From the NCBI GenBank assembly GCA_025359785.1, contig JANYET010000014.1:124001-188000 (forward strand): a DNA stretch of 64,000 nucleotides. Direction: 5' to 3'. Positions 35,980-60,981 of the stretch are shown piece by piece. Each line of letters starts with the position of its first letter. Position 1 is the stretch's first letter. Both the position numbers and the translations under genes were made by a program. The notes under the pieces were generated by a model, which saw nothing but the letters and a program-made list of their open reading frames with translations, had not been told where the DNA came from and did no database searches. This DNA comes from Alphaproteobacteria bacterium. Its GTDB lineage: Bacteria; Pseudomonadota; Alphaproteobacteria; Caulobacterales; Caulobacteraceae.

Positions 35980-38900
35980 ACGCGCCGCGCTCTTCGCGAC
36001 GGCCGCGGCCCAGCTCTGCGTCGGTAATCCGGCGCGGGCTCAGCCCCGGCCGCCTGACGCGATAGACGTCCTGCTGTTCGGCGCGCGCGGGCCGCCGACC
36101 GGGATAGCCAACCCCAATGGCGAGGCGATCGCCGACTTCCTCATTCGCGGCGACGGGCCGCAGGGCATGCCGCGGACATCGTCGGGGCGTGCGCGTCTGC
36201 TTCTGGTGAACACCAGCGCGGCGACCGCTCCGGCCCGATCAACCCAGGTGGCGGCAACCCAGGTGGCAGCAACCAAGGCCGCGGCAACCAAGGCGGCGGC
36301 GATGCCGCCCGGCGTGGGCCCGCGCGACCAGATCGGCGATCTGGTGCTGGCCAGCGCCGCCGCGGCGCCCGGCGGTTTCACAACGCGCTCCGGCGGCGGC
36401 GTCGCGCGCACCTTCGCCGCGCCCGATCCTCAGAGCCTGCTGCTGCTGCTGGTGCAGCTCGACGACCTGACGCTCACCGACGGCATGGCCGCCTATGGCG
36501 CGCCGGAGGATCCGCTGCTGCCGGTGGGCGAGATCAGCCGCCTGCTGGAGCTGGATATCGACGTCAGTCCCAGCACCGGCCGCATCACCGGCAGCCTCGG
36601 CGAAGCGCGCCGCGCCCTGATCATCGACCTGGCGACCAACACCGCGCGCATCGGCCCGGTGCAGGTCGGCCTGGCGCCGGGCGACGTTGTGGTCGATGCG
36701 GCCGATATCTATGTGCGCGCCTCGGTGCTGGCCAAGCTGCTGCCGCTGAAATTCGACGTCGATCCGCGCGCCCTGCAGATGCGGCTCACGGCGACCGAGC
36801 TGCTGCCGATCCAGGGGCGGCTGCAGCGCCTGGCGCGGATCCGGCAGTCGGCGCCGAACCCGAACGCCACCCAGGTCATGCGCGTCAAGGAGCCCTACCG
36901 GCTGTTCACGCCGCCGTCGCTCGACGTCGCGCTTGGCCTTGGGGCCCAGACGGTCGCGCCCCGGGCGCTGACCCGATACGACATCCGCCTGGGCGGCGAC
37001 CTGGCCTATATGGGCCTGCAGGCCTATGTCGGGTCCGACGACAGCGGCCGGGCCAGCATCGCCCGCGTCCTGCTGGAAAAGCGCTCGGTCGACGGCGATC
37101 TGCTGGGGCCGCTGCACGCCCGCGTCGTGGGCCTGGGCGACGTCTTCACCCCCGGCCTGTCGATCGGGCCCCGCAGCATCGGGGGCCGCGGCTTCCAGAT
37201 TTCCAGCGCGCCGCTGGACCAGGCCAGCGTGTTCAACCGTGTCGATCTGCGCGGCGAGCTGCCGCTGGGCAGCGATGTCGAGCTCTACGTCAACGATGTG
37301 CTGCAAGGCGCCCAGCAGCAGGCCGTGGCGGGCCAGTACGCCTTCCTGAACGTGCCCCTCACCCAGGGCATCAACGTCATCCGCCTGGTGACCTACGGTC
37401 CGCGTGGCCAGCGCGCCGAAGAGACCCGGATCATCAACGCCACCGGCGGCCTGCTGCGCGCCGGCCAGGTCACCTACGACTTCGGCGCGGTGGCGCAGGA
37501 TGAAGCGCTGATCAGGCTCAGTGACTTCAACACCTTCGTCGCCAACCGCGGGTCCGGCCGCCCGCGGGTCGTGGCGGCGGTGAACTATGGCGTCACCCAG
37601 TACCTGACCGCCACGGTGGGCGGCGCGGTCTATACCGACTACCTGGGGATCGAGCGGCAGCTCTACACCGGTGGCCTGAAGACCTCGATCGCCGGGTTCG
37701 CCACCCAGTTCGATCTGGCGGGCGACAATCACGGCGGCCAGGGCGCCTCGGCCGACATCGCCGGGCGCATCCTGGGCGCCAATACCGTGCTGCGCCATTC
37801 GGAGTACCGCGGCGGCCTGCTGGACGAGAACAACGCCGAGGCGTCGATCGACCGCCCGGTGCGCCGGCGCACCGAACTCGACATCGACCGCAATGTGCCG
37901 CTGGGCGGCGGCCGGGTGATCCCGCTGTCGGTTCGCGCGCTCCGCGACGTCTACGCCGATGGCGGCAGCGCCTGGATCGGCCAGCTGCGCGGATCGGCCT
38001 CGGTGGGCAGCGTGCTCTATTCGACGGGCCTGGAGTACGACCGCAACATCGCCGCCAGCGGCCAGACCAACGACATCCTGCGCGGTTTCGTCGGCGTCTC
38101 CACCTTCCGGAACTACGACTGGCAGGTCCGCGCGACCCTGAACTATGACGCGGTCCCCTATCTGCGGGTCAGCGGCCTGGAGGTCATCGCCGACCGGGCG
38201 ATCAGCAACACCTGGTCGGTGCGCCTGGGCGCCACGCAGCGCTTCACCGAGCCCAAGGACCTGGAACTGATCATCGGCAGCACCACGCGCACCAAGTTCG
38301 GCGATCTGGCGCTGACCGGCCAGTACGACACCTCCAACTCCAGCTGGCGGCTGGGCGCGCAGATGAACTTCGGCCTGGGCTGGAATCCGCAGGGGCACGG
38401 CTACGAACTGACCCGGTCCGGGCCCGGCTCCGGCGGTTCGGTGCTGTTCCACGCCTTCATCGACGCCAACGGCGACGGCCAGTTCGAACCCGGCGAGCGG
38501 CCGGTGGCCGGCGTCGCCTTGGAGGGGGGCGAGCTCAAGGCCAGGACCGATCTCGAAGGCCGCGCCTATCTCAGCGGGTTCGGGGCTGGCCCCACGGCGC
38601 GCCTGCTGGTGGAGATCGGCGATGTCGAGAACCAATCCGTCAAGACGCCGCCGAGAATGATCGAGTTCTCGCCGCGGCCCGGCGGCGTGACCCAGATCGA
38701 ATACCCCATGCGGCCGACCGGCGAGGTGATGGTCAACGTGCGCCTGCGCCGGCCTGATCAGGTTCCGGTCGGCCTCTCGGCGACCCGGGTGCGGTTGGTG
38801 GACGACAAGGGCGTGGTGTTCGAGGGCGTCACGGAATTCGACGGCTCGGTGAACTTCCACGACCTGCCGGCCGGCAGCTACCGCCTCGAGCTCGACAAGG

Positions 38901-39040
38901 ATCAGGCCGCGCGGCTGCGCATGCGCCTGACCGCGCCGGTCAGCGTCACAATTAGGCCGGATGGCGCGATTACGCCGGACGCCGAGGCCGAGGTTGAGTT
39001 TGAACCCCGCGCCGACGCGGAGCCCAAGGCGCCCGGATGA
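35960..39040 (+). CDS. Outer-membrane usher-like protein
   Basis: A 1026-residue exported protein beginning at TTG within the chaperone gene (GGGAAAG 5 bp upstream). Signal peptide about 1-28. Residues about 90-115 carry five-residue repeats (TQVAA, TKAAA). A soluble N-terminal region follows, including DDLTLTDGMAAYGAPEDPLL and LLELDIDVSPSTGRITGSL. Then comes a long beta-barrel region (about 320-830) with usher-like ELPLGSDVELYVNDVLQG and GQYAFLNVPLTQGINVIRLV. Near 835 it has FIDANGDGQFEPGERPVAGV, a calcium-type/SdrD-like repeat, then beta-sandwich C-terminal domains. It should secrete and assemble the DUF4402 subunits. The N terminus is unlike classical FimD/PapC. Confidence 0.8.
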   Translation: MRNSSFRRAALFATAAAQLCVGNPARAQPRPPDAIDVLLFGARGPPTGIANPNGEAIADFLIRGDGPQGMPRTSSGRARLLLVNTSAATAPARSTQVAATQVAATKAAATKAAAMPPGVGPRDQIGDLVLASAAAAPGGFTTRSGGGVARTFAAPDPQSLLLLLVQLDDLTLTDGMAAYGAPEDPLLPVGEISRLLELDIDVSPSTGRITGSLGEARRALIIDLATNTARIGPVQVGLAPGDVVVDAADIYVRASVLAKLLPLKFDVDPRALQMRLTATELLPIQGRLQRLARIRQSAPNPNATQVMRVKEPYRLFTPPSLDVALGLGAQTVAPRALTRYDIRLGGDLAYMGLQAYVGSDDSGRASIARVLLEKRSVDGDLLGPLHARVVGLGDVFTPGLSIGPRSIGGRGFQISSAPLDQASVFNRVDLRGELPLGSDVELYVNDVLQGAQQQAVAGQYAFLNVPLTQGINVIRLVTYGPRGQRAEETRIINATGGLLRAGQVTYDFGAVAQDEALIRLSDFNTFVANRGSGRPRVVAAVNYGVTQYLTATVGGAVYTDYLGIERQLYTGGLKTSIAGFATQFDLAGDNHGGQGASADIAGRILGANTVLRHSEYRGGLLDENNAEASIDRPVRRRTELDIDRNVPLGGGRVIPLSVRALRDVYADGGSAWIGQLRGSASVGSVLYSTGLEYDRNIAASGQTNDILRGFVGVSTFRNYDWQVRATLNYDAVPYLRVSGLEVIADRAISNTWSVRLGATQRFTEPKDLELIIGSTTRTKFGDLALTGQYDTSNSSWRLGAQMNFGLGWNPQGHGYELTRSGPGSGGSVLFHAFIDANGDGQFEPGERPVAGVALEGGELKARTDLEGRAYLSGFGAGPTARLLVEIGDVENQSVKTPPRMIEFSPRPGGVTQIEYPMRPTGEVMVNVRLRRPDQVPVGLSATRVRLVDDKGVVFEGVTEFDGSVNFHDLPAGSYRLELDKDQAARLRMRLTAPVSVTIRPDGAITPDAEAEVEFEPRADAEPKAPG
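36242..36301 (+). repeat. Four tandem 15-bp repeats in the usher gene
   Basis: Units acccaggtggcggca, acccaggtggcagca, accaaggccgcggca, accaaggcggcggcg, encoding TQVAA twice and TKAAA twice in a likely disordered linker after the signal peptide. Confidence 0.93.
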
Positions 39041-52987: not shown

Positions 52988-53734
52988 ATGTCTCTTCCCC
53001 TGACCGATAAGATCGCCCTCGTCACCGGGGCCAGCCGCGGCATCGGCTACGCCTCCGCCATCGCGCTCGCCAAGGCCGGCGCTCACGTGGTCGCCGTCGC
53101 GCGCACCCAGGGCGGCCTCACCGAGCTTGACGACGAGATCCGGGCCGCCACCGGCCAGTCGGCCACCCTGGTTCCGCTCGATATCACCGATGGGACTGGC
53201 CTCGACGCCCTCGGGCTGGCGCTATACCAGCGTTTCGGACGCCTCGACGTCCTGGTCCATGCCGCCGCCATGCTGGGACCGATGACCCCCATGAGCCACC
53301 TTGAACCCGGCCAGTGGGACAAAGTCGTCGCCCTGAACCTGACGGCGACCTACCGCCTGATCCGCACCACCGAGCCGCTGTTGAGGGCGTCGCAGGCCGC
53401 GCGCGCCATCTTCCTGACCACCGGCCGCGTGGCGCGCCCGAAGGCCTTCTGGGGCGCCTACGGCGTCACCAAGGCCGGCCTGGAGCACATGGTCCGCACC
53501 TGGGCCGACGAGCTGGAGCAGACCGGCGTCCGCGCGGTCCTGCTCGACCCCAACACCATGCGCACCAGGATGCGCGCGGAGGCCATGCCGGGCGAGGATC
53601 CGGAAACCGTGACGCCGCCGTCGGAGATCGGCCCGCTGATGGTGCAACTGGCCCAGGCCGACCTGGGCCTGCCGAACGCTAACGTGGTCTTTTCCCACTG
53701 GAAGGCGCAGGGCGGGATGCTCGCTTCGGCTTGA
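52988..53734 (+). CDS. Short-chain dehydrogenase/reductase
   Basis: A 248-residue NAD(P)-dependent oxidoreductase. It has TGASRGIG at about 13-20, HAA in place of the usual NAG, and the active-site [11 protein letters not shown]. The catalytic Ser position appears as Thr/Gly in [11 protein letters not shown], so the tetrad may be altered. It starts 19 bp after the transporter gene. Its last 56 bp overlap the 3' end of der on the other strand. Confidence 0.87.
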
Positions 53735-55283
53735 CGCCGGGCCGCGCCAGCTTCTGAGCCCGCCCGCGTGGCGCGCCGGTCTTCGGCTTGGTATTGCCAT
53801 AGGGCTTGGGCTTCTTCGGCTTGCCCGCCGCGCCCGCCTTGGCCTTGGCCGACGCCGCGGTTCGCCGTTTGGCCTTCAGTCCTGTCGTGGGTAACCCGCT
53901 TTCGGGCAGGCCGAAGGGCGCGCGGACCGAGCCTTGCCCGGCCTTTTCCTCGCCCTCGGCGTAGGGGTTCTTGTTCGACTTCACCGTCACCCGGATCGGC
54001 ACGCCCGGCAGATCGAAGCTCTCGCGGAGCGAATTGACCAGATAGCGGCGATAACTCTCCGGCAGCTGGTCGGCGCGGCTGGCGAACAGCACGAAGGTCG
54101 GCGGCCGCGACTTTGTCTGGGCCATGTACTTCGGCTTGATCCGCCGTCCGCTCACCGCCGGCGGCGGGTGGCGTTCGGTAGCCATGCGCAGCCAGTCATT
54201 GAGGTCGCGGGTCTTCACCTTGGTCGACCAGTCGTTGTGGGTCTTGAACACCGCCGGCATCAGCTTTTCGAGCCCTCGCCCGGTCTCCGCCGACAGCGGG
54301 ATGATCGGTGCGCCGCGCACCTGCGGCAGCTGGCGTTGCGCTTCGTCGATAATGGCCGCCAGCGTGGTCTGCTGGTCTTCCACGAGATCCCACTTGGCCA
54401 GGACGAAAACCAGCCCACGGCCTTCTCGTTCCACAAGATCGGCGATCTGCAGGTCCTGAATCTCGAAGGGATGGGTTGCGTCCATCACCAGGATCACGAT
54501 CTCGGCGAAGGTGATGGCGCGGATACTGTCGTGGGTGGAGAGCTTCTCAAGCTTCTCCTGCACCTTGGCCTTGCGGCGCAGACCCGCGGTGTCGACCAGG
54601 CGCACGGCGCGGTCGCCCCAGGACCAGTCCACTGGAATGGCGTCGCGGGTGATCCCGGCTTCCGGCCCGGTCAGCATGCGGTCTTCGCCGATCAGCTTGT
54701 TGACCAGCGTCGACTTGCCGGCGTTCGGGCGACCCACGATGGCGATCTTCACGGCCTTTTCGCCGTCCTCGTCCGCGTGGTCGCTCTGGTCCGGCGCGAC
54801 GGCGATCAGCGCCGCATAGAGGTCGGCCATGCCCTCGCCATGCTCAGCGGAGATCGGCACCGGCTCGCCCAGACCGAGGCCGAAGGCTTCCAGAATGCCC
54901 TGATCGCCCTGTCGGCCCTCGGCCTTGTTGGCGGCCAGCACCACCGGCATGTCGCGCCGGCGCAGGATTTCGGCGAACACCTCATCGATGGGGGTGACTC
55001 CATCGCGGCTGTCGATGACGAAAAGCGCGACATCGGCCTCATCGATGGCCATCTCCGTCTGAATGCGCATCCGCGCCTCCAGGCTGTCGTCGGTCAGATC
55101 CTCGAAGCCGGCGGTGTCGATAAGCTCCAGGTCGAGGTCGCCGATCCGCCCGGTGCCGAAGCGCCGGTCGCGGGTCACCCCAGGCTGATCGTCGACGATC
55201 GCAAGTTTTCGCCCGGCCAGGCGGTTGAACAGCGTGGACTTGCCGACGTTGGGGCGCCCGACGATCGCGAGTTTCAGCGTCAT
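53679..55283 (-). CDS. der: Ribosome biogenesis GTPase Der
   Basis: An essential GTPase for 50S assembly with two G domains: [12 protein letters not shown] at about 8-19 and [12 protein letters not shown] near 187, each with DTAG ([18 protein letters not shown]) and NKAE/KWD elements, then a KH-like domain. At 534 residues it is longer than usual (about 490) because of a Lys/Arg/Pro-rich tail ([20 protein letters not shown] and following). The tail coding region overlaps the SDR gene end. Last gene of yfgM-bamB-der. Confidence 0.95.
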
Positions 55284-55305
55284 GGCGCGAGCATAGGCCT
55301 AAAGA

Positions 55306-56691
55306 TCAGCGCAGTGCGATCAGCTGGGCGTTATCAGTGACCAGATAGATCATGTTGCCCGCCGAAATCGGCCCGATCAGCACCGGAACGCCCACCTCGA
55401 TCTTGCGCTCGACCTCACCGGTTTTGGCGTTCAGCGCCGCCACCTGACCGGTGGAGGACGCCAGGATCAGGCGATTGTTCGAGAGAATCGGATTGGTCCA
55501 CAGCGGCTTCGGCACGGTGTGCGAACCGATCCCCCAAAGTCCGCCCTGCTTCTTGGCCACATAGCCGGCGTTGAGGTCGTGGATCCAGAAGATCAGACCA
55601 CTCTCGCGTGAGGCGCAGATCAGCTTGCCGTCGGTCGCCACCGCATAGACCACGTCACCGGCCGGCAGTGGCGTGGTGATGCCCACCACCGGCAGGCTCC
55701 AGCGCGGCTGGCCGGTGCGCAGATCCACCGCGGAGAACACACCGGAATGGCTCACCGCGAAAACGTCGCCCTGATAGATCACCGGGCGGCCGGCGATATC
55801 GCGGATTTCCGACAGCGCGCTGGTGCGGCTGGCTCGCGACAGGGCCTCATTCCAGAGGTCGTTGCCGTTCGCGGTGCGCAGCGCGACGAGTTCGCCGGAC
55901 CCGAAGGCCGCGACGACCGTATCGCCCGAGACCGCCGGGCTGCTGGAGGACAGGATCCGCGCCGATTCCGACAGGGCCTGATAGGTCCAGCCCGGCGCAC
56001 CGGTCGCGGCGTCATAGGTCAACAGCGTGTTGTCCAGAGCGACGGTCAGAACCCGCCCGCCGGCGACGGTCGGCGCGCCGTGGATCGGCTGTTCGGTGCG
56101 CGTGCGCCAGCCGACCCGGCCGGTCGTGGCGTCGATCTGCGCGACCAAGCGGAAACCGGAGGTCATGTAGAGCTTGCCGCCGGCGTAGGCCAGTCCGCCG
56201 CCGAAGGCTTCGCGATCACGCCGGTTGTCGGTCGGCCGCATGTTGATCCGCCAGAGGGCGGCGCCAGTCTGGGCGTCATGGGCGCTGACCTGCGCCTGGG
56301 CGTCCAAGGTAAACACCTTGCCGGCCGCCGCGATCGGCGGGGCGATGACCAACTCGCCGTTCTTAGAGCCCTGGCCGAAGCCCTTGCGCCAGGCGACGGT
56401 GAGCCCGGGCCCGGCGGTGCTGTTGCCGACGGACTGCTCGGGCGTCCCGCCGGGCAGCGGCCATTCCGCCACCGCCTCAACCGGCGGCAAGGCGAAGTCG
56501 ACGCCTTTCAGCGCCTCGGCCGGCTCCAGCTTCTGGTCCGCCGAGATGATCGAGATGCGATCGCCTTCGGTGGCGGTCTCCTTGGCTTCCTTACCCTTGA
56601 ACGGGTTGACCTTGCTGATCGTCGAGCAACCGCTCGCGCCCAGCGCGGCGATCATCAGGACGGCGATGAAACTCCTGGCGCGAAGCGTCAT
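55306..56691 (-). CDS. bamB: Outer-membrane protein assembly factor BamB-like lipoprotein
   Basis: A 461-residue beta-propeller lipoprotein. The lipobox LGASGC puts the lipidated Cys at 22. The mature part contains PQQ-like propeller blades (VFTLDAQAQVSAHDAQTGAA, LTYDAATGAPGW, FSAVDLRTGQPRW, VAALNAKTGEVERKI). BamB supports insertion of outer-membrane proteins through BamA. It lies between yfgM and der, the conserved order, with the ATG overlapping the yfgM stop. It is longer than E. coli BamB (392 aa) mainly at the N terminus. Confidence 0.92.
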   Translation of the reverse strand: MTLRARSFIAVLMIAALGASGCSTISKVNPFKGKEAKETATEGDRISIISADQKLEPAEALKGVDFALPPVEAVAEWPLPGGTPEQSVGNSTAGPGLTVAWRKGFGQGSKNGELVIAPPIAAAGKVFTLDAQAQVSAHDAQTGAALWRINMRPTDNRRDREAFGGGLAYAGGKLYMTSGFRLVAQIDATTGRVGWRTRTEQPIHGAPTVAGGRVLTVALDNTLLTYDAATGAPGWTYQALSESARILSSSSPAVSGDTVVAAFGSGELVALRTANGNDLWNEALSRASRTSALSEIRDIAGRPVIYQGDVFAVSHSGVFSAVDLRTGQPRWSLPVVGITTPLPAGDVVYAVATDGKLICASRESGLIFWIHDLNAGYVAKKQGGLWGIGSHTVPKPLWTNPILSNNRLILASSTGQVAALNAKTGEVERKIEVGVPVLIGPISAGNMIYLVTDNAQLIALR

Positions 56692-57500
56692 TGCGGACCG
56701 GGCGCTTGCTCTTGAGCAGAGGGCGCCTGAGCCGAGGGATCTTGCCCCTCCGGCGGCGCCAGGCCCATCGGCACGCCACCCGGACCCACCATCATCGGGG
56801 GTGGCAGGGCCTGGGCGGCCTTGACGGCGGCGGGAATGAACTTCGCGGACCCAGTATCGATCATGTCCATGGCGGCCCTGGCGCGCTGGCGAGCGCCTTC
56901 CGGCGCATCCAGCGTTCCGGTGATCACCACGAAATCGGCGCGCGCGCCGGCGGCGTCGCCCTTCATCAGCTTGGCGAAGGCCAGCGCCTCGCGGGCCTGC
57001 ACCCGATAGGGGTGACCGTCTTTCATCAGCGGCTGCAAACGCCCCTCCACTTCACTGTAGGAAGCGGTGTCGAGGATCGCGAAGGCGGATTTGAGGCGCG
57101 CGGCGTCACCGATGATATCGTTAGGCGCGGCTGCGGCCGCCTTGTCGAACAGCTCAACCGCGGCCTTGACGTCCTCCGGCTTGCCGGCCGCCATCTTGGC
57201 CCCGCCCAGCTGCATCAGCGCCAGCGCGCTATAGACCTTGACCGGCGACTTGGAGACATCGCCGAAGATCTGGATCGCCTTGGCGCTGTTCCCCTGGGCC
57301 TGGGCGCTCAGCGCGTCGGCATACTGTTCGGAAGCCTTGTCGGTGGTCTGCAGCTGGTATTGCTGCCAGCCCCAGATGCCCAGCGCGACGAGCAGCGCCA
57401 GCGCCGCGAGCGCCAGCACCCACGGCAGCCCCTTGCGGGCGAGCGTGCGGTAGCGGTCGGAGCGCAGCTGCTCCTCGACCTCTTCAAACAGATCGCTCAA
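56688..57500 (-). CDS. YfgM-like membrane-anchored TPR protein
   Basis: A 270-residue protein with a cytosolic N terminus (MSDLFEEVEEQLRSDRYRTL), one membrane helix at about 27-47 (VLALAALALLVALGIWGWQQ), a TPR-like periplasmic domain, and a Pro/Gln-rich tail (about 235-270). In E. coli YfgM works with PpiD at the Sec translocon. The order yfgM-bamB-der supports the assignment. Its stop overlaps the bamB start (ATGA). Confidence 0.87.
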   Translation of the reverse strand: MSDLFEEVEEQLRSDRYRTLARKGLPWVLALAALALLVALGIWGWQQYQLQTTDKASEQYADALSAQAQGNSAKAIQIFGDVSKSPVKVYSALALMQLGGAKMAAGKPEDVKAAVELFDKAAAAAPNDIIGDAARLKSAFAILDTASYSEVEGRLQPLMKDGHPYRVQAREALAFAKLMKGDAAGARADFVVITGTLDAPEGARQRARAAMDMIDTGSAKFIPAAVKAAQALPPPMMVGPGGVPMGLAPPEGQDPSAQAPSAQEQAPGPQ

Positions 57501-57631: not shown

Positions 57632-58009
57632 TCAGATCTCGCCGATCACCCGGGTGAGCACAAAACCCATCATCACCACGGCCAGACCGGCGGCGATCCA
57701 CACCACACCGCCGCCACTCGAAACCGTGGCCACCCAGTCAGCGCCCGACGTGACGTGGCTGACACTGTTGGTGAGCAGCCGCGCGGAATCGCCGGCAGCC
57801 TCCACGCGCTGGAAGATATCGGACATCATCAGCTGGCTGGCGCCGATAACGCCGCCGACCACACCGGCCGCGCCGATCAGCCAGCGCCGGGCGGTCCAGC
57901 CTGCATCCAGCCGACGTTCCACACGCTCGGCGAAGGGGCCCGCGTCGGCCAGTTCTGGGGCGTCCATGAAGAGGCGCTCAATCCGGCGCTCGAAATCCAG
58001 CTCAACCAT
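57632..58009 (-). CDS. Putative anti-sigma factor of the second ECF module (membrane protein)
   Basis: A 125-residue protein overlapping the end of the sigma gene by 8 bp. The cytosolic N-terminal part (FERRIERLFMDAPELADAGP) resembles that of the other module (DRLKALFALDDAPALDPAFS). Two hydrophobic segments follow, about 43-62 and 100-120. No zinc HxxxCxxC motif is present. The start ATG at 58009 is preferred since a longer reading runs through the sigma gene. Anti-sigma role is inferred from overlap, topology and the parallel module. Confidence 0.75.
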   Translation of the reverse strand: MVELDFERRIERLFMDAPELADAGPFAERVERRLDAGWTARRWLIGAAGVVGGVIGASQLMMSDIFQRVEAAGDSARLLTNSVSHVTSGADWVATVSSGGGVVWIAAGLAVVMMGFVLTRVIGEI

Positions 58010-58586
58010 TGCCGCGCCTCCCTTCCAAAACGGCGCCGTCTTCCGGCGCCAGTCGCGTTCTGAGTTTCTCCAGACCACGTTTGACATGGGATTTGACCGT
58101 TCCAAGTGGCAGGTTCAAGGCCTCTGCCGCTTCACTGTGAGAAAGCCCCGCGCCGAAACACATGGTCACGCATAGCCGCTCCACCGCACTCAGCACCTTC
58201 AGCGCCTCTTCCAGGTCGATGGCGGCGTCTGCGTCGGCGGGGCGGGTATCGGCCTCGTCCTCGACGGCCTCGGCCGTCAGGGCGCCCAGCTTGCGGTCCC
58301 GTTGCAGACGCCGCAGATAAAGCCTGGCCGCGATCTTCTTCACCCAGGCCGCGAACGTGCCCTCCCCACGGAATTCCGCAATCCGCTCGAAGGCGGTCAG
58401 GAAGGCGTCCTGGGCTACGTCATCGGCCTCGGCGGCCTGCGCGCCCATCCGGCGGAGTACGCCGCGGACGGCGGATCCATGGCGTCGCACCAGTTCCCCG
58501 AAGGCGCGTCGTTCCCCGATCGCCGCGAGCGCGCAAAGCTCGACGTCGTGCTGGCTGGCGAACTTGGAGTATCTTTCGCCCGGCAT
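58002..58586 (-). CDS. ECF RNA polymerase sigma factor, second module
   Basis: A 194-residue ECF sigma factor. Region 2 includes RAFGELVRRHGSAVRGVLRR and AEADDVAQDAFLTAFERIAE; region 4 includes LSAVERLCVTMCFGAGLSHS and EALNLPLGTVKSHVKRGLEK, a helix-turn-helix for -35 binding. The linker is acidic (AEAVEDEADTRPADADAAID). It starts 27 bp after the DUF6249-like gene and overlaps the putative anti-sigma gene by 8 bp. Confidence 0.93.
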   Translation of the reverse strand: MPGERYSKFASQHDVELCALAAIGERRAFGELVRRHGSAVRGVLRRMGAQAAEADDVAQDAFLTAFERIAEFRGEGTFAAWVKKIAARLYLRRLQRDRKLGALTAEAVEDEADTRPADADAAIDLEEALKVLSAVERLCVTMCFGAGLSHSEAAEALNLPLGTVKSHVKRGLEKLRTRLAPEDGAVLEGRRGNG

Positions 58587-58613
58587 GGGCCATTTCCCCC
58601 GGCTGAGCCGTGA

Positions 58614-58994
58614 CTAGCTCTTGGGCCGGTTGACGAAGCTGAGCACGATGAAGGCCAGGCCGATGAACACCGGGAAGGCGGCGCAGGCGATCATTGGAAT
58701 GGTGGCGTCTGGCTCTTCATAGCCCAGCGCGATCCCCATCGCGATGAAGCCCAGGCCGATGCCCAGCCAGATGATGCCGGTCCGCAGATCGCGGCTCGCC
58801 GACGGCGCCGGGCGGATAGTGATGTTGCGCGCGGCGTTTTCCATGACCTCGGTGGGCATGGGCTGGCCGCTTTCGATGGCGGCGCGCAGGGTTTCCTGCA
58901 CCCGGATACGTTCCTGACTGCGCAGCCAGAACGGGATGATGATAACGCCGACGATCGATCCAAAGACGATCGCAACGATCAAGACAGCTTCCAT
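58614..58994 (-). CDS. DUF6249-type small membrane protein, second module
   Basis: A 126-residue protein: N-terminal helix at about 3-24 (AVLIVAIVFGSIVGVIIIPF), a charged loop with QETLRAAIESGQPMPTEVME, then two more hydrophobic segments (about 72-92, 98-120). The loop resembles LLRSYAEKGKEPPPELVRGL in the membrane protein of the first module. AAGGAG lies 8 bp before the ATG. It is placed before an ECF sigma gene, so it may sense or relay an envelope signal; this is inference. Confidence 0.83.
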   Translation of the reverse strand: MEAVLIVAIVFGSIVGVIIIPFWLRSQERIRVQETLRAAIESGQPMPTEVMENAARNITIRPAPSASRDLRTGIIWLGIGLGFIAMGIALGYEEPDATIPMIACAAFPVFIGLAFIVLSFVNRPKS

Positions 58995-59081
58995 TTCGTC
59001 TCTCCTTACCTCGATGATAGCGGGCCGCTTTTAGCCCGTTTCTGATGAGGAAGAGGCTTAGGCGATGGCCGTCAGATGCAA

Positions 59082-59105
59082 ATTGTAGCGTGAATTCTTG
59101 GTCAT
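59082..59105 (-). promoter_or_regulatory. Candidate internal promoter of the second ECF module
   Basis: On the minus strand ATGACC, a 10-bp spacer and GCTACAAT. The latter matches seven of eight positions of the Caulobacter -10 GCTANAWC. It would start transcription about 75-80 bp before the DUF6249-type gene, so the second module could be expressed independently. Confidence 0.4.
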
Positions 59106-59410
59106 GTAGCCAGACCAAGCGCAGCCGTGGGCCGCGCGCCAAGGATGATCGCGGCGCAGGCCGCCACGACGATGGCTCCCAGCGCCGGCGCCAGCCAGTG
59201 TGAAACCGCTACCAGGACCGGCTGCAGGGTCGGCCAGATCAGCCAAAGTACGCCGGCCGCCACCACGCTCACCGCGCACAGCAGGGCGACCTCCTCGCGC
59301 AGGCGCTGACGCATCACCTGTTCCATCACGGCGTGCGAGAATGCCGGGTCCAGGGCCGGCGCGTCGTCCAGCGCGAACAGCGCCTTCAGGCGATCATCAG
59401 CTTGCGTCAT
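59102..59410 (-). CDS. Putative anti-sigma factor of the first ECF module (membrane protein)
   Basis: A 102-residue protein overlapping the sigma gene by 14 bp. Cytosolic N-terminal part (DDRLKALFALDDAPALDPAF) followed by two hydrophobic segments (about 42-62 and 75-95). It shares the pattern RL/I-x-x-LF-x-D-AP-x-L with the second module's protein. No zinc anti-sigma motif is present. Its role is inferred from position and topology. Confidence 0.77.
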   Translation of the reverse strand: MTQADDRLKALFALDDAPALDPAFSHAVMEQVMRQRLREEVALLCAVSVVAAGVLWLIWPTLQPVLVAVSHWLAPALGAIVVAACAAIILGARPTAALGLAT

Positions 59411-59936
59411 CGCTCACTCCCAACGCTTGGCAGAGCCGCGCGCGGCCCCGCGATACATGGCTTTTCACGGTGCCCAGCGGCATATTCAACGCCTCTGCGG
59501 CCTCAGGGTGGCTGAAATCGGCCGCCAGGCAAAGCGCCACGCAGGCCCGTTGTTCCGGCGGAAGATCCGCCATCGCCCTTTCCAGCGCGATCTTGTCTTC
59601 CGGCGCTGCGTCCACGGTGACATCGCGCTCGGCCTGGTAGACCGCGCCCCGCGCGCGCTCACGGCCCGCCGAGCGGATCGCGGTCAGATGTTTGTTGTAG
59701 CCGATGCCACAGAGCCAGGCTCGGACGCTGGCGCCGGTGGTCAGCCGCCCGATCCGCGACCACGCGGCCAAGAAGGTCTCCTGCGCCAGATCGTCGGCCA
59801 TGGCCCAGTCGCCGCAGGATCTTCGCAGGAACGCACGCAGCGCCTGCTGATGTCGCTCGACAAGCCGCGAGAAGGCTTCCGCCGATCCGCCCTGGGCGGC
59901 GGCGACCAGCGCTTCGTCGAGGCTCGCCGGCGACAT
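59397..59936 (-). CDS. ECF RNA polymerase sigma factor, first module
   Basis: A 179-residue ECF sigma factor. Region 2: SAEAFSRLVERHQQALRAFL and WAMADDLAQETFLAAWSRIG; region 4: RAMADLPPEQRACVALCLAA and EALNMPLGTVKSHVSRGRAR. The region 4 helix is nearly the same as in the second sigma factor (GTVKSHV), so the two may see related promoters. It starts 25 bp after the membrane protein gene and overlaps the putative anti-sigma gene. Confidence 0.93.
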   Translation of the reverse strand: MSPASLDEALVAAAQGGSAEAFSRLVERHQQALRAFLRRSCGDWAMADDLAQETFLAAWSRIGRLTTGASVRAWLCGIGYNKHLTAIRSAGRERARGAVYQAERDVTVDAAPEDKIALERAMADLPPEQRACVALCLAADFSHPEAAEALNMPLGTVKSHVSRGRARLCQALGVSDDAS

Positions 59937-59961
59937 CAGCCCAGGCCCCGGGCGGCAACTC

Positions 59962-60447
59962 TCATTTGTTTCGGAAACTGGAGGCCATCAGGGCAAAGAC
60001 CAGGTTGCCGATGCAGACGATGGTCAGGATGACCGCCACCAGTCGGAACGGCCCGTAGGTGCCCGGCCAGTCGGACCATTCCGACGCCCACCAGAAGCCC
60101 GCGGCGATCGCACCGGTGACGAACACCGTGCGCCACTGCCAGTAGGGGCCGTAGCGGTAGTAGTTGCGGTAGGCGCGGCGCATATAGCGCGGCGCGCCCC
60201 AATAGCCGCCGTAGTAGCCCGGCGGTGGCATGCCGCCCGGCGGATAGCCCCCCGGCGCCTCGCCCGGCATTTCGCCGAGGCCACGCACCAGTTCCGGCGG
60301 CGGCTCTTTGCCCTTTTCGGCATAGGATCTCAGCAGGTCGAGGTGATCGCGGCTGCGTTTGTAGGCCAGCCAGCGATCCCAGGCCCCGAACACAAAGGCG
60401 CCGATCGGAAACAGCAGCCACCAGTAGTCACGCCAGAACTCATCCAT
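59962..60447 (-). CDS. Small membrane protein, first ECF module
   Basis: A 161-residue protein: N-terminal membrane helix (MDEFWRDYWWLLFPIGAFVF), basic charged loop with LDLLRSYAEKGKEPPPELVR, a Gly/Pro/Tyr-rich stretch (PGGYPPGGMPPPGYYGGY), then two hydrophobic segments at about 107-122 and 135-155. It is the counterpart of the DUF6249-type protein of the second module. The ATG at 60447 is chosen because the longer reading adds Arg/Gly-rich sequence with no membrane character. First gene of the sixfold cluster. Confidence 0.8.
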   Translation of the reverse strand: MDEFWRDYWWLLFPIGAFVFGAWDRWLAYKRSRDHLDLLRSYAEKGKEPPPELVRGLGEMPGEAPGGYPPGGMPPPGYYGGYWGAPRYMRRAYRNYYRYGPYWQWRTVFVTGAIAAGFWWASEWSDWPGTYGPFRLVAVILTIVCIGNLVFALMASSFRNK

Positions 60448-60615
60448 GAGCCTATGCTCCCTGAACCTGCGGCGGCCGGAAAGTCCCGCACCACCTTTGC
60501 CTCTAGTCGCCGCAGACCCGCCGAGCGGATGCAAGGCGCGGCGATTGAGCGTCGGGAGCCTATGCTGAGCAGGCCCTGCTCGCCACGCCGCCGCCGCCCC
60601 GGCCGCGCGCGGCGA

Positions 60616-60981
60616 TCACCGGGCCTCGAACAGCTCCACGATGTTTCCCGCGGGGTCCTCGCAAAGAATCTGGCGGCCGCCGGGGCCCTCGACCATCGCA
60701 CTGCGGAAGCTTACGCCTTCGCCGCGCAACCGCTCGACCAACGCCGGCAGGTCGTCGACGCTCAACACGAACCGGCCCCAACCACCGGCTACTGGCTGCG
60801 CGCCGTCCGCCATCGGCCTGGACGCCGAGGCCATCGGGCCGGCCAGCCACAGCCTCAGGTCGTCGCGCTGCAATATCGCCATCGCCGGCCCGAACTGCTG
60901 CTCGAGACTGAACCCCAGCCTCTCAGTGTAGAACGCCACAGCCTTATCGACGTCATCGACGATGTAGCGAACCTGAGCCAT
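60616..60981 (-). CDS. VOC superfamily protein (glyoxalase/bleomycin-resistance-like)
   Basis: A 121-residue protein with the paired beta-alpha-beta-beta-beta fold: VRYIVDDVDKAVAFYTERLG, then GRFVLSVDDLPALVERLRGE and ILCEDPAGNIVELFEAR. The last Glu (NIVELFE) is a usual metal ligand, but the first ligand position (VRYIVD) lacks His. Function unassigned. It ends the minus-strand group before the ECF modules, 168 bp upstream of them, and starts 2 bp after the ArsC/YffB-like gene stop. Confidence 0.85.
   Translation of the reverse strand: MAQVRYIVDDVDKAVAFYTERLGFSLEQQFGPAMAILQRDDLRLWLAGPMASASRPMADGAQPVAGGWGRFVLSVDDLPALVERLRGEGVSFRSAMVEGPGGRQILCEDPAGNIVELFEAR

Follow-up and report, generated by a model that had tools for sequence, protein, structure and literature searches.

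Two homologous three-gene modules of ECF sigma factors and putative membrane regulators with predicted GCATC-type promoters in Phenylobacterium

In Bacillus subtilis, the extracytoplasmic function (ECF) sigma factor SigM is under the control of two small membrane proteins: YhdL binds the sigma factor, full anti-sigma activity requires YhdK, the control is thought to be allosteric and not proteolytic, and the carrier-lipid pool has been proposed as the signal (PMC6827917, PMC11081497). We describe two neighboring three-gene modules of comparable make-up in a 64,000-nucleotide stretch of contig JANYET010000014.1 (hereafter the window; all coordinates are positions in it), assigned by a scan of named genomes to Phenylobacterium (Caulobacterales), with relatives in Caulobacter and Brevundimonas. 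Each module encodes a leading membrane protein (mem1, mem2) that belongs to the family DUF6249 or appears distantly related to it, an ECF sigma factor (sigma1, sigma2) and a second membrane protein, a putative anti-sigma factor (partner1, partner2). The reading that we favor with reasonable confidence is that the halves are autoregulated ECF units, each complete in itself and with a third membrane component, and that sigma1 also drives an efflux response.

SigM–YhdL–YhdK appears to be the closest studied parallel. There as here, one ECF sigma factor is combined with two small membrane proteins in a single autoregulated operon, the autoregulation being predicted in our case, whereas its gene order is sigM-yhdL-yhdK, its host is Gram-positive, and the parallel is drawn without a sequence relation. 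In another three-part ECF system, CnrH–CnrY–CnrX of Cupriavidus metallidurans, CnrX is the third component and a periplasmic metal sensor; unlike mem2, it is not a DUF6249 protein. CnrH was among the Protein Data Bank (PDB) relatives of sigma2 (4cxf, E 1.3e-13), but CnrY, the two-helix class II anti-sigma factor of CnrH (PMC7406223), was absent among the PDB matches of our partner profiles at E ≤ 1. Class II domains of the CnrY type wrap around the sigma factor with a pair of short N-terminal helices. Anti-sigma factors with a class I anti-sigma domain (ASDI), such as RseA and RsiW, are encoded near their sigma factor and have a cytoplasmic N-terminal domain, often with membrane helices; the study of these domains excluded those of less than 50 amino acids (aa) (PMC7406223). 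The partners resemble them in gene position, N-terminal part and membrane helices, but this N-terminal part spans ∼40 aa instead of ≥50 and lacks the Hx3Cx2C cysteines: partner2 has no cysteine at all, and partner1 has none in its N-terminal part.

A first-pass annotation of the window, made from its sequence, had named no published description of a three-part ECF system with a DUF6249-like component. Three-part ECF systems in general are known, as SigM shows. For the DUF6249 type, in the open-access literature on DUF6249, on DUF5056 (a family resembled by some partners) and on their combinations with ECF sigma factors we found no description of the system, DUF6249 yielding one paper, on plant kinases, and DUF5056 none; its sigma factors may nevertheless be listed as a group in the main ECF classification. 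The available text of PMC7403779, PMC12596196 and PMC4391529 had no bearing on a system of DUF6249, ECF and partner. No names for the Caulobacter counterparts of the modules were found in the literature; SigV of C. vibrioides differs, with GGAAG-type promoters and a different setting in the text available (PMC13171946). ECF sigma factors with membrane regulators are a known kind, and what appears to be new is the composition of three parts, together with its promoter and regulon.

All six open reading frames (ORFs) lie on the minus strand. Module 1 consists of mem1 (59962..60447, 161 aa), sigma1 (59397..59936, 179 aa; Sigma70_r2 56.5 bits, Sigma70_r4_2 56.1 bits) and partner1 (59102..59410, 102 aa), and module 2 of mem2 (58614..58994, 126 aa), sigma2 (58002..58586, 194 aa; Sigma70_r2 54.1 bits, Sigma70_r4 52.1 bits) and partner2 (57632..58009, 125 aa). 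The leading gene and the sigma gene are separated by 25 base pairs (bp) in module 1 and 27 bp in module 2, and the sigma and partner genes overlap by 14 and 8 bp, respectively. The repeated order and the parallel spacing had been noticed in the first-pass annotation; all six ORFs were present at their places, and the distances were exact. Its call of two ECF sigma genes also held, as both products exceeded the Pfam cut-offs for Sigma70_r2 and Sigma70_r4. The matches over cut-off comprised sigma2 and sigma4 domains only, plus the related Sigma70_ECF for sigma2, and by this domain content both are ECF (group IV) sigma factors. The leading protein mem2 passed the gathering cut-off of the DUF6249 model PF19762 (53.6 bits vs. 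33). No Pfam or NCBIfam model, for mem1 including PF19762 with its cut-off of 33, matched mem1, partner1 or partner2 over its cut-off, and mem1 was assigned to the DUF6249 surroundings by a profile alignment described below.

The association of DUF6249 with ECF sigma genes, on which the first-pass annotation had let its proposal depend, recurred well beyond the window. Among 80 named loci collected by DUF6249 similarity from related species, 78 had the order DUF6249–sigma–partner, and the remaining two (L252, L286) end at a contig edge; in 46 of the 80, module 1 was also present upstream, whole or in part. Of 17 DUF6249 loci from other families of the order, 14 had an ECF sigma gene directly downstream. 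Matches to PF19762 occurred in 21 of 387 genomes sampled from the class and in 29 of 299 sampled from the phylum. We examined 29 of the 33 hits outside the order, those left out (G569, G599, G675 and the second of G610) all being below the cut-off, and found 13 of 15 over-cut-off hits and 4 of 14 below-cut-off hits directly upstream of a same-strand ECF sigma gene. A restriction of the link to Caulobacterales was thus rejected, with linkage seen in Alphaproteobacteria and in other classes of the phylum. At each of 32 loci examined within and outside the order, the sigma gene was followed by a gene for a 71- to 166-aa protein with a hydrophobic helix, in a check that favored ORFs with such a helix; the two genes overlapped by 4 bp at 18 of these loci.

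Several loci depart from the simple arrangement. Where module 1 is absent, the gap is closed in place, as in L238, where the module 2 promoter comes right after an arsC-family gene. In 11 of the 46 loci with module 1 (e.g., L295, L305, L311, L314 and L317; several from Caulobacter), a further mem1-like match precedes mem1, perhaps giving two DUF6249-like genes before one sigma gene. An additional partner1-like gene was seen at L297:4564-4851, ∼1.7 kb past a complete module 1 and before module 2, and sigma2 is split over two frames in L302 and likewise in L108. At L232, L233 and L236, the ECF gene adjoining a weak DUF6249 match lies on the other strand, by chance or as a divergent arrangement. 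DUF6249 hits with no ECF sigma detected directly downstream (L146, L147, L153, L181, L182 and L187) may reveal the role of DUF6249 alone.

Each module is preceded by a conserved promoter-like site. The predicted ECF promoter of module 1, GCATCC-N15-GGCGACTA (60504..60532, minus strand), is the only match to its pattern in the window, at 60532-60504, with 0.08 expected by chance; that of module 2, GCATCT-N16-GCCTCTT (59051..59079, minus strand), lies between partner1 and mem2 and is also the only match, at 59079-59051, with 0.17 expected. In the named loci, upstream regions shorter than 300 bases being excluded, slightly relaxed forms were found before mem1 in 42 of 44 regions (GCATCY-N15 and a GGCGACT-like box) and before mem2 in 72 of 78 (GCATCY-N16 and a GCCTC-like box), the latter in 32 of 33 regions without mem1 and 40 of 45 with it. 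The module 1 pattern never occurred at the module 2 place in these regions, nor the reverse. Because the two modules have the same unusual −35 element, GCATC, but different −10 elements, they probably form separate circuits, each sigma factor presumably recognizing its own site.

An AAC in the −35 element with a CGT in the −10 element was an early hallmark of ECF promoters and is no longer treated as a rule (PMC8103513). The sites found here depart from it in their conserved GCATC, which lowers the case for a typical ECF promoter but not that for the ECF identity of the sigma factors. To the named loci we added a distant set of 32, of which L136 belongs to the same genus and the other 31 to different families or classes; at three of the 32 there is no ECF neighbor. 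A direct-repeat form, GCATCY-N15/16-GCATC[TA], preceded DUF6249 in 17 of the 32, compared with 33 of 6,132 background windows (true sites included), while GGAAC-N14-18-CGT, the one AAC form searched, was found in none of the 32 upstream regions. We read the direct repeat as what may be the older form of the promoter. A scan for it in G040, covering 0.8 of 3.58 Mb with the genome's own operon outside, gave six main and three relaxed matches against 0 and 0 in the controls, with no clear target among them.

The module 1 site was further traced in 101 Phenylobacterium genomes, 40 with mem1 and 61 without, which are related and not independent. The exact site GCATCY-N15-GGCGACTA was present in 32 of the 40 genomes with mem1 but in only 3 of the 61 without it, and the reversed pattern, used as a control, matched once in the 101 (G700). 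Given this presence and absence across genomes, it would be sigma1, not sigma2, that reads the GGCGACTA-type site. In 20 of the 32 genomes the operon site was the only one; sites away from the operon numbered 30 in 12 of the 40 mem1 genomes and 8 in the 3 without mem1 (G015, G758 and G760). The contig of G015 ends 138 bases before mem2, so that its assembly may lack module 1; in G758 and G760 there is a single site with a G preceding GGCGACTA.

We examined 36 of the 38 nonoperon sites, from 13 genomes, leaving out the single sites of G758 and G760, and each of the 36 lay no more than 119 bp ahead of a gene, these genes falling into six families (assigned by eye from translations and named from one representative each). 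The most frequent, with 11 sites, was a NodT-type outer-membrane factor, whose gene stands ahead of RND adaptor and pump genes at the three loci that were read (L397, L401 and L413). Two DrrA-like ABC ATPases accounted for 6 sites in 5 genomes, one of them before a truncated copy, and for 7 sites; the permease after the first ATPase had a sub-cut-off Pfam match only. The remaining sites preceded a class I methyltransferase (6 sites), an alpha/beta hydrolase (3 sites) and a large redoxin/EF-hand-like lipoprotein (3 sites) whose AhpC-TSA and Redoxin matches fell just under the cut-offs. At L411 (G000, contig C75; sites 36606-36634 and 38938-38966), the exporter ATPase promoter and gene start occur twice, 2.3 kb apart; the second ATPase copy is truncated, with 55 aa, and a gene resembling mreB by eye lies nearby. 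This repeat is a local duplication or an assembly artefact. For module 2, the exact pattern was found in 67 of the 101 genomes, mostly once, with 7 matches of the reversed control. The recurring site was the promoter of its own operon wherever the operon position was known, and with looser spacing the nonoperon matches were not clearly above the control.

Gene order, homology, linkage, the conserved promoter-like sites and the genes carrying the module 1 site point to the following scheme. In the resting state, the partner, by binding the sigma factor as an anti-sigma factor, and the DUF6249 protein, acting as sensor or as co-anti-sigma factor in the manner of YhdK, would jointly hold the sigma factor at the inner membrane, in a presumed topology. 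A membrane change or a membrane-active compound may then be the signal that releases the sigma factor, and the freed sigma factor would bind its GCATC-type promoter and boost its own operon. In Phenylobacterium, sigma1 would also switch on an export and detoxification set: the NodT–RND pump, the two ABC exporters, the methyltransferase, the hydrolase and the redoxin-like protein. A concrete export gene set is thereby named, for which inducers can be sought.

Several results weigh against this scheme. Eight of the 40 mem1 genomes lack the exact module 1 site and 28 lack one away from the operon, and for the exact module 2 pattern no target beyond its own operon was established in the 101 genomes. 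Outside the order, no same-strand ECF gene lay directly downstream of 2 of the 15 over-cut-off hits (L181 and L182) and 10 of the 14 below-cut-off hits. As for the putative anti-sigma factors, a comparison of the partner profiles with PDB sequences gave no solved anti-sigma domain, only weak unrelated matches, and the AlphaFold model of partner2 is of moderate quality (pLDDT 71, pTM 0.36), with a short helix 2-15 and a long helix 23-79.

DUF6249 is a family of unknown function, and its role in the unit could differ from that in our scheme. By a crude hydropathy threshold, mem2 has three hydrophobic helices and mem1 only one. The AlphaFold model of mem2 (pLDDT 88, pTM 0.59) has helices at 2-41, 48-55, 66-93 and 95-121: long helix 1 leads from a hydrophobic segment into the conserved region and is followed by a short helix and a helical hairpin. 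A fold search with this model gave no PDB match at E ≤ 0.001. A conserved loop and a basic region after helix 1 characterize the family, and as a possible switch in the first gene of the unit they would suit an activator: an anti-anti-sigma factor that senses membrane stress and pulls the partner off the sigma factor, such that its loss keeps the system off. We consider this role unlikely; the present evidence fails to separate an activator from a co-inhibitor, but YhdK, the nearest studied parallel, is needed for full anti-sigma activity (PMC6827917).

It seems similarly doubtful that the DUF6249 protein is a mere co-transcribed target, a membrane-protection protein expressed by a two-part system of sigma and anti-sigma factor. 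Targets of ECF sigma factors are often placed in the operon of the sigma factor itself, and some DUF6249 relatives have no neighboring ECF gene, both in keeping with such a role, yet the linkage is seen in Alphaproteobacteria and, beyond them, in other classes of the phylum, and each of the paralogous modules has kept its own copy at the same place.

In our scheme, the partners would hold the sigma factor jointly with DUF6249. The first-pass annotation had described the products of the sigma-overlapping genes as two-helix membrane proteins, and hydropathy agreed, with two hydrophobic helices each (41-59 and 73-91 in partner1, after ∼40 aa). The motif that it gave for both was right in that they share an N-terminal block, but the DAP within it is local, and the wider pattern is a leucine block with a near-invariant F before the helices; one N-terminal phenylalanine is shared by at least 90% of 34 partners. 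Partner1 matched DUF5056 (PF16479) with 13.6 bits (E 0.082), below the gathering cut-off of 28, and partner2 gave no DUF5056 match. Of the 34 partners, 11 matched this family, whose function is unknown, at E ≤ 0.1 (best 1.4e-6), and 1 matched PF13796, "Putative sensor," at 1.2e-6. DUF5056 genes may adjoin ECF genes in Bacteroidota. The short N-terminal part of the partner is probably the anti-sigma domain. That the downstream membrane protein is no anti-sigma factor and that the sigma factor is controlled by transcription alone or by DUF6249 is, in our view, quite improbable. The missing match to a solved anti-sigma domain and the brevity of the N-terminal part, shorter still at L227, would agree with it, but short two-helix anti-sigma domains exist (PMC7406223), the common N-terminal block is followed by hydrophobic helices, and the partner gene overlaps the sigma gene here and, by 4 bp, at the 18 loci mentioned above.

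The scheme of two like units implies that the halves are related, and every gene of one half has a homologue in the other, as profile comparisons and the identity of the sigma factors (42% over 175 aa) indicate. A relation between mem1 and mem2 had been claimed in the first-pass annotation, necessarily from motifs because their pairwise BLASTP comparison is almost empty (48 aa, E 0.022). The profiles, built from related genomes (25 sequences for mem1, with one wrong-frame row, L133; 73 for DUF6249; 26 and 40 for the partner families), support it: the mem1 and DUF6249 families aligned in hhalign with 97.9% probability (E 3.2e-13, 110 columns), compared with 0.2, 1.0, 1.8 and 12.9% in four control alignments of mem and partner profiles. 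This makes mem1 a diverged, distant homologue of DUF6249. The charged-loop pattern noted in both proteins is there, although with a different spacing: the form is L-R-x-x-x-E-x-G-x-x-x-P-x-E, with three residues, not two, between R and E. The partners are the weakest pair, with an almost empty BLASTP comparison (E 0.92) and a profile alignment at 67% (E 5e-5) over 39 N-terminal columns.

The proposed duplication of a whole signalling unit accordingly keeps its homologous genes but looks old, not recent. In a sigma tree of 66 rows (quick method, SH-aLRT only, midpoint root), the sigma1 rows fall on one side of a branch with support 90, below the mark of 95, and join the DUF6249-linked sigma factors of L148, L149 and L150 from other families, also with support 90; L141, of another family, has one sigma factor of each kind. 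Since the tree places the two halves in separate lineages, with this modest support of 90, the duplication is probably an ancient one, unless old paralogues were brought together to form the pair. A recent tandem duplication is unlikely from the same tree, read with the same limits of method and support. That two unrelated ECF operons came together by chance, with motifs owed to the usual make-up of small membrane proteins, is very hard to credit, for however well it suits the near-empty BLASTP comparison of the membrane proteins and the separate sigma lineages, it is opposed by the profile homology of the leading proteins far above the controls (97.9% vs. 0.2 to 12.9%), the −35 element common to both promoters and the three-gene order that the halves share.

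A wider reading of these units is more tentative, and we put it forward as a possibility somewhat short of an even chance. DUF6249 and the DUF5056-like partner may be the membrane halves of a widespread ECF class, found in Alphaproteobacteria, in further classes of Pseudomonadota and possibly in Bacteroidota, that senses the state of the inner membrane and has a promoter language of its own, GCATCY-N15/16-GCATCT. Caulobacterales would then hold two old paralogues of the class, which in Caulobacteraceae came to stand side by side with diverged −10 elements as two separate circuits, of which one serves an efflux response. Both protein families would thereby gain a first testable role, and other genomes can be screened for this recurrent ECF unit of three genes and its unusual promoter. 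With one promoter element in common and the other diverged, the two paralogous modules offer a natural case of possible insulation of sigma circuits after duplication.

The surroundings of the modules are also recurrent. In the 80 named loci, the flanking genes included an arsC-family gene in at least 61, a tetratricopeptide repeat (TPR) gene in at least 55, bamB in at least 49 and der in at least 41, the counts being lower bounds as many loci are short. In the window, TPR, bamB and der-like genes come after module 2 (53679-57500); the TPR gene we take to be YfgM-like, and the name der is likewise our assumption for its neighbor. On the other side, a glyoxalase-family gene (60616-60981) stands between the arsC-family gene and module 1, a gene seen in only 1 of the 80 named loci.

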